This document shows, one piece after another, positions 2 through 2,814 of a stretch of DNA of 47,343 nucleotides. The translations under genes were made by a program, and so were the position numbers. The DNA lies in NCBI GenBank assembly GCA_036504675.1, contig DASXUT010000061.1:1-47343 (forward strand), read 5' to 3'. Under the pieces are notes generated by a model that did not search any database, was not told the DNA's origin, and worked only from the letters and a program-made list of their open reading frames with translations. Origin of the DNA: Bacillota bacterium. Its GTDB lineage: Bacteria; Bacillota; Sulfobacillia; JAJYWN01; JAJZPE01. Each line of letters starts with the position of its first letter. The first letter of the stretch is position 1.

Positions 2-685
2 CGTTCTTTGAGGAGGGATGACTCCCGGCGAAAGGCACCCTATTGGGGCATCTTGGCTAAAATCTATCGCAATCTATGGGCGCTCAACCAAGCCGACAAA
101 TACTATCGGCTTTACCTAAAGCTCTCTATGCAGGAGAATAACGTTCTGCAAGTAGGTTACGGCCATATGGGTCTGGGTCTGAATTACTATCAGCAGGGCG
201 ATCAGGAAAAAGCCCTTGACTCTACTGAAAAAGCCCTGTCGATCTTTGAGTCCATGGGGAACGAATCGCTACGGTTCGCTGCCAAGCTCAACATTGCCTG
301 TATCTATAACGCGATGAGCCGTCACGATCTATCCCTGAAGGTCCTGCAGTCAGTCCTAGCTGGGAATCTTCCGGTTGACTCTGCGATCTTGTGTAAGACC
401 TATCAGGAGCTGGCCAAAACTCATTTACGCTTGGGGGCCATCGATGGGTTTTTCCAGGCCCGCGAAAGGGCTGGTGACTATGCTGTCCAATCAAAGAGTC
501 TCGTGGAAATGGGCAGGGTGACCATGCTTGATGCGGAGTGGTTTTGGTCGCAGGGGCAGAACAAGAAAGCCATCCAGAGTCTGCGGAAGGCAATCATGAT
601 CTTCCGCAACCATGGGGCGGCTGTCGAACTTCGGCCAGCAGAAAAGCTGCTAATGACTTGGGTGAAAGGAGGGGACAGCGAATGA
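2..685 (+). CDS. TPR-repeat protein, C-terminal part (gene begins outside the window)
   Basis: The reading frame is open from the first codon of the window, so the N-terminus, possibly a helix-turn-helix domain, lies to the left. The visible ~227 residues are helical and consist of tetratricopeptide-like repeats; typical units appear around residues 48-80 (a GLNYYQQGDQEKAL-like stretch), 85-120, 130-160 and 175-205. No enzyme motif is visible. The stop codon overlaps the start of a small exported-peptide gene (ATGA, 682-685), which implies translational coupling. Known TPR receptors paired with a short secreted peptide are the RRNPP family (Rap, PlcR, NprR, PrgX); membership here is inferred from architecture only. 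Base composition is visibly more AT-rich than the rest of the window, hinting at transfer. It could also be the TPR tail of a SARP- or MalT-like regulator. Confidence 0.8.
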   Translation, partial: RSLRRDDSRRKAPYWGILAKIYRNLWALNQADKYYRLYLKLSMQENNVLQVGYGHMGLGLNYYQQGDQEKALDSTEKALSIFESMGNESLRFAAKLNIACIYNAMSRHDLSLKVLQSVLAGNLPVDSAILCKTYQELAKTHLRLGAIDGFFQARERAGDYAVQSKSLVEMGRVTMLDAEWFWSQGQNKKAIQSLRKAIMIFRNHGAAVELRPAEKLLMTWVKGGDSE

Positions 686-822
686 AGAGCATCCTCAAGA
701 GGCTGGGAGCCGTCTTGGTCCTGGTCGTCTTGGTGTTGACCCTGGTCGCGACCCCTGTTCTCGCCGATCCTGCGAGTGAACCGTGGCCCCCGCGCTGCAA
801 CGTTGTCCTCCCGGGCAAGTAG
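682..822 (+). CDS. 46-residue exported peptide encoded directly after the TPR protein
   Basis: This ORF is too short for routine calling. It starts at the ATG that overlaps the TPR gene's stop; the TPR gene's 3' end supplies a strong ribosome binding site (AAAGGAGGGG, about 668-675). The peptide has a textbook signal sequence: a basic start (K2, K6, R7), a long Leu/Val core at residues 8-22, and a VLA-type signal peptidase site near residue 28. The predicted mature tail is about 18 residues, rich in Pro, with one Cys and ending in Lys. Size, export signal and coupling to a TPR receptor resemble Phr/PapR/NprX pro-peptides. The function is inferred; no homologue is recognised. Alternatives are a small lipid-free secreted peptide or a membrane miniprotein unrelated to signalling. 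Confidence 0.72.
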   Translation: MKSILKRLGAVLVLVVLVLTLVATPVLADPASEPWPPRCNVVLPGK

Positions 823-873
823 ACCAAGGCTAGCTAGCGGTTGAAGCATCAAGCAAGATGGAACGGGACAGCA

Positions 874-904
874 AAGGAGCGCCACAGAGCGCTCCTTGTT
901 GTTT
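874..904 (+). terminator. Intrinsic terminator after the TPR/peptide pair
   Basis: A perfect 9-bp stem (874-882 with 889-897) and a 6-base loop are followed by a T-rich stretch (TGTTGTTT). It lies 52 bases after the peptide gene and in front of the convergent pyrG 3' end, so it probably ends the TPR-peptide transcript. Confidence 0.7.
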
Positions 905-951
905 CCATTACCAGGGCGGCCGGCCCGGGGCGTTCCCCGATGGCCCTCCCC

Positions 952-2814
<1,863 letters not shown>

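Follow-up and report, generated by a model that had tools for sequence, protein, structure and literature searches.

Our analysis identifies, at the left end of the window (the whole 47,343-nucleotide stretch analysed here), a gene pair that we consider fairly probable to encode a peptide pheromone and its cytoplasmic, adaptor-type receptor, resembling Rap-Phr in logic. The window is the entire contig C61 of a 3.28-Mb genome in 199 contigs (G000), and direct reading shows the TPR frame to be open from base 2 up to a TGA stop at 683-685. Because the window begins at base 1 of its contig, the TPR gene lacks its 5′ part, and its own promoter, 5′ end and leader therefore lie off the contig (Table 1). 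Pfam recognises TPR repeats in the visible protein (TPR_2, 3e-11). Reading of the sequence confirmed the initial annotation's description of a TPR stop overlapping the ATG of a 46-residue ORF, followed by a terminator, whose hairpin (AAGGAGCGC/GCGCTCCTT, 874-897) precedes a T-rich run. The small ORF encodes MKSILKRLGAVLVLVVLVLTLVATPVLA as predicted signal sequence, followed by DPASEPWPPRCNVVLPGK as predicted mature tail; with Lys in the N-terminus, a long hydrophobic core, a VLA/DP site and an 18-residue tail, it also bears out the signal sequence and Ala-type cleavage site claimed for it, as judged by the home-made rule and inspection by eye that were used for signal sequences throughout.

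Table 1. Coordinates of the features discussed; positions refer to the window unless another locus is named.
Feature	Position	Strand	Remarks
TPR receptor gene, 3′ part	2..685	+	227 aa visible; full-length paralogue 317 aa
Shine-Dalgarno AAAGGAGGGG of the small ORF, within the TPR gene	665..674	+	strong
ATGA start/stop overlap, translational coupling	682..685	+	ATG 682-684 on TGA 683-685
Exported propeptide gene, predicted	682..822	+	46 aa; profile of four homologues
Predicted mature tail DPASEPWPPRCNVVLPGK, conserved C-terminus	766..819	+	cleavage site by eye
Tract 97% identical to the C2 copy, 123 bases	787..909; G000:C2:365-487	+	peptide C-terminus to terminator
Intrinsic terminator	874..907	+	hairpin conserved in 4/4 copies
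Presumed CTP synthase gene pyrG (named from sequence recognition), convergent	952..2781	-	context outside the pair; adjoins the pair in G001 and G002 too
TPR-HD-GYP gene elsewhere in G000	L204 1477-3150 (G000:C162)		exported small ORF downstream, ends AGICKGPGLLVVPMYGIVD
c-di-GMP-I riboswitches immediately preceding TPR-HD-GYP or TPR-peptide operons	L206, L207, L211, L213-L216, L233; L040, L062

The pair belongs to a small family of four copies. A full-length second copy on contig C2 of the same genome encodes a receptor 55% identical to that of the window and a TTGA-coupled small ORF ending in PPRCNVVLPGE, and two further genomes (G002 and G001) carry one copy each, both beside pyrG. TTGA coupling recurs in G002, and in G001 the TPR frame continues through the peptide gene with no stop at the peptide start; the Shine-Dalgarno sequence of the small ORF is also present in the C2 and G002 copies and degenerate in G001. 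The receptor, its coupling to or tight overlap with the small ORF, the signal sequence and a related tail are kept in all four copies from the three genomes, and the RRNPP-like gene layout that the initial annotation had recognised is conserved with them. The propeptides of the family measure 46-48 aa. Conservation of their C-terminus, which had been put forward as a check, was found (…NVVLPGK in the window, …NVVLPGE in C2, SADVITIGK in G002 and AANVILGK in G001); of the Pro/Cys-containing tail described earlier, the Pro pair is invariant across the four copies, together with a V and a G, whereas Cys occurs only in G000. The expectation that a small ORF always follows homologues of the TPR gene held for all orthologues and failed for some more distant TPR relatives, which have no peptide. 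True orthologues were found in only three of the 154 class genomes, and the only matches in named genomes were two Bacillota MAGs, which correspond to the G002 and G001 loci; a plasmid collection gave no match to the pair and viral contigs no relative of it. Most hits that the peptide profile scored in other genomes fell on the signal sequences of large proteins and were set aside; a new pair emerged only from G030.

The tract shared by the window and C2 copies (Table 1) starts at the PPR codons of the peptide, and the remainder of the two copies has diverged. Such a tract amid diverged copies makes gene conversion or a recent exchange likely on the sequence evidence, and both copies in G000 would then emit a nearly identical C-terminal peptide. 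The pair of G002 is flanked by sppA on one side and pyrG on the other; in G000, sppA neighbours the C2 copy and pyrG the window copy, an arrangement that suggests a tandem duplication split by assembly. The gene that we take to be sppA (signal peptide peptidase), named from sequence recognition, is divergent and upstream of the TPR gene at L002 1967-2776 (G000 C2) and L017 2833-3795 (G002). A Spo0A-box-like TGTCGAA and a common element, AAGGAGGAAACTGCCGAG, are located 84-138 bases upstream of the TPR start in G001 and G002 (L017, L018); a search of the window did not recover the common element. A Spo0A-box link for the window family was discarded, the matches being too few to count.

Exported small ORFs at the stop codon were found for 11 of 222 plausible genes in the sampled loci, a background of loci selected in part for the presence of TPR genes or peptides, and nine of the 11 stood behind TPR genes. 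None of 16 HD-GYP control genes without TPR repeats, taken from the same search and including three with only about 100 readable bases after the stop, was followed by one. The recurrence in the paralogue and in G001 and G002, with conserved tails, argues, at the level of sequence, that the arrangement of a TPR gene and an exported peptide exceeds chance.

According to PMC10075063, the RRNPP signature comprises a TPR receptor of 250-500 aa and an adjacent, Sec-exported propeptide of 10-100 aa at a distance of -60 to 400 bases. The corresponding values here are 317 aa (C2 receptor), 46 aa and -4 bases, with a clear signal-sequence anatomy by the home-made rule. The C2 receptor consists of TPR throughout (TPR_12, 8e-16) and has no RNPP_C match, and the small protein has no Pfam match, in agreement with the earlier statement that neither partner is a recognisable member of a named group; judged from these sequence features, the pair fits the RRNPP signature in lengths and distance and by its apparent Sec signal, yet appears to fall outside every named subfamily. 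The N-terminal helix-turn-helix (HTH) considered in the initial annotation is absent from the full-length C2 paralogue (Pfam) and from the AlphaFold model of a window-family orthologue, which is all TPR. This model is a 15-helix TPR superhelix (pLDDT 90.7), and the solved structures among those closest to it include RapI (Z 25.1, rmsd 2.9 over 272), other Raps (Z 22-24), NprR (22.6) and AimR (19.2). LGN and other unrelated peptide-binding TPR proteins match the model no less closely than Rap does, and the fold therefore does not discriminate RRNPP members; as modelled, it is a peptide-binding type of scaffold rather than proof of membership. A PDB profile search with the family's receptor gave marginal matches to NprR (E 0.003) and RapF (0.01), and a conserved asparagine ladder in the TPR groove, looked for by eye, was not established.

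Among known systems, Rap-Phr shares with the window pair an HTH-less TPR receptor, whose structure is close to the model in the case of RapI, and a coupled downstream propeptide whose Sec export and C-terminal signal are predicted in the window pair. Rap proteins act on Spo0F or ComA through an N-terminal three-helix bundle (PMC9765709 and, in part, general knowledge). This bundle was not recognised in the window family, in whose model the first residues correspond to Rap positions from about 40 in some comparisons and from 101 in RapI, and the sequence similarity is marginal. PlcR-PapR, NprR-NprX, AimR-AimP, QsrR and other HTH-containing RRNPPA systems likewise combine a TPR receptor with an adjacent propeptide, but HTH-type receptors (PlcR, NprR, Rgg, PrgX, AimR) carry an N-terminal HTH that the window family lacks. 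Loss of the HTH is described for Rap and, separately, for the predicted RRNPPA subfamily 17 of Anoxybacter fermentans (PMC12700828); that subfamily has an HTH-less receptor outside Bacillus as well.

We propose the following hypothetical sequence of events for the window pair, in which (i) the receptor is translated first and the propeptide from the coupled start; (ii) the propeptide would be exported by Sec and cut by signal peptidase after VLA; (iii) a C-terminal fragment around NVVLPGK would be re-imported and bind the groove of the TPR superhelix; and (iv) the receptor, having neither a DNA-binding nor a catalytic domain, would act by peptide-dependent binding of another protein, a partner possibly tied to sporulation or c-di-GMP signalling. 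An HTH-less receptor-peptide pair of this kind would widen the RRNPP output set, in a lineage for which we found no description of peptide signalling.

A related arrangement occurs with TPR genes fused to HD-GYP, the domain of c-di-GMP phosphodiesterases, which is present in these relatives and absent from the window family. One such gene lies in the window's own genome (Table 1), and the peptide at the orthologous locus in G001 keeps SGICKGPGIL. Profile A5, built from five TPR-HD-GYP proteins, found about 15 such proteins in the class, and HD and GYP motifs are intact in four of five aligned relatives. An exported small ORF lies close behind 11 of the 13 class genes with readable 3′ ends (G000, G001, G028, G065, G120, G080, G081, G036, G011, G064 and G097), where the G001 case was counted by eye since its ORF has no clear AxA site, and five of the positives were A5 members. 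Before G097 was added, Fisher's p was 5e-6 for 10/12 against 0/16 and 2e-5 against 0/13; for genes found by the peptide-blind profile, seven of ten (two of the ten being from outside the class) had the ORF, with a hypergeometric p of about 2e-4 by hand calculation. No small ORF followed the gene in G037 (class) or G361 (outside the class), which leaves one positive out of two outside the class. In G044 (L207 after 3030) a tail-like QSRPIIRDGGF is kept behind an intact TPR-HD-GYP gene and the signal sequence is missing, possibly a decayed peptide gene. Related tails recur across genera (…GPMVSDFVW, …GPMVSDFVF and …GAMVSDWVW in f10 and f31; …VYWLW and …IHWIW in f44), and the third-codon-position excess is clear in two close peptide pairs beside TPR-HD-GYP genes.

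A c-di-GMP-I riboswitch precedes seven of 14 TPR-HD-GYP loci in the class, or eight loci in all with G164 from outside the class, which unites riboswitch, TPR-HD-GYP gene and an exported 66-aa ORF ending in SGPWWW; none precedes the HD-GYP controls without TPR. Riboswitches of the c-di-GMP-I-GGC type were detected in 136 of 154 class genomes and were absent from 14 control genomes. TPR-only genes whose stop is accompanied by an exported small ORF were found in G022 and G004, both behind c-di-GMP-I-GGC riboswitches, and in G025. A survey of 50 c-di-GMP-I riboswitch loci revealed no further TPR-peptide pair, so the link is specific to a few operons. The G004 propeptide contains GVYDPPPPR three times in tandem (L062, about 1260-1480, minus strand), and that of the TPR-only gene in G030, reached solely via the peptide profile, contains ADGPAYPYPPPPGGG twice in tandem (L142 1501-1716). 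Tandem repeats of the signal are known from Phr propeptides (PMC11343458). G017, of the same class, pairs an HTH-TPR gene with an exported peptide.

These loci may follow a common scheme, in which a cytoplasmic TPR groove detects a secreted peptide and the outputs differ: DNA binding in G017, phosphodiesterase activity in TPR-HD-GYP proteins and protein binding in the window pair. We tentatively put forward, with less confidence than the pheromone reading itself, that the class uses exported peptides for direct control of c-di-GMP, via TPR-HD-GYP proteins or a separate TPR adaptor of the kind proposed for the window, with the riboswitch ahead of the operon closing a feedback loop. If true, RRNPP-like reception would here have a second-messenger enzyme as its output, and operons made up of TPR-HD-GYP gene, peptide and riboswitch would each bring peptide quorum sensing together with c-di-GMP. 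To our knowledge, the known RRNPP receptors act via DNA binding or response-regulator binding. The passages of the RRNPP literature that were searched mention neither HD-GYP nor c-di-GMP, and within an incomplete coverage of the literature we found no published account linking RRNPP-type receptors to HD-GYP or c-di-GMP riboswitches; the putative peptide-gated c-di-GMP signalling of the TPR-HD-GYP form has no earlier description in the literature searched. The TPR proteins RcbAB of Vibrio vulnificus are reported to modulate c-di-GMP (PMC12282931). They resemble the proposed function in this respect and differ in being from a Gram-negative organism. We know of no exported peptide associated with them.

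The window pair could itself be a branch of such a circuit, its standalone TPR protein sensing the peptide and acting in trans on a c-di-GMP enzyme, with the same sensing unit fused to HD-GYP in sister genes. The TPR-HD-GYP gene with its own exported peptide in the same genome, the riboswitches ahead of the TPR-only pairs of G022 (grouped with the window clade) and G004, and the alignment of profiles A1 and A5 over 285 columns are consistent with this, but TPR repeats align with one another generically, and no riboswitch was detected at the window-family loci L004, L033 and L034 at E 0.01, where Rfam as a whole gave no match. The tree joins the window clade with G022 (support 97/95) and with HTH-TPR proteins rather than TPR-HD-GYP proteins. 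Its long branches make this position unsafe, and we therefore do not claim an action of the window receptor on c-di-GMP; as an account of the window pair, we regard the branch as unlikely.

The pheromone reading also has to be weighed against the small ORF being a secreted effector, such as an antimicrobial peptide or an envelope protein, with the TPR protein aiding its production or immunity instead of sensing it; the window tail may be no more than a small secreted protein. The Pro-rich mature tail, the Cys in G000 and the weak, below-cut-off matches of the G022 and G004 TPR proteins to RiPP-associated TPR families point in this direction, yet modification enzymes, a transporter and an immunity gene are absent beside the orthologues, and the short conserved C-terminus, the tandem-repeat versions and the pairing with HD-GYP fit signalling better, leaving an effector role improbable. 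That the small ORF is nonfunctional, its signal sequence a by-product of GC-rich coding, is the least credible reading. In its favour, the ORF is short, members of the window family show a weak excess at the third codon position, and a recent duplication or conversion tract accounts for some of the sequence identity of the window and C2 copies; against it, two genera conserve the start codon, the ribosome-binding site, the signal sequence, an AxA-type cleavage site and the tail, and the four-member peptide profile scores its members, by construction, at E 1e-20 to 1e-25 against 1e-5 for the next match.
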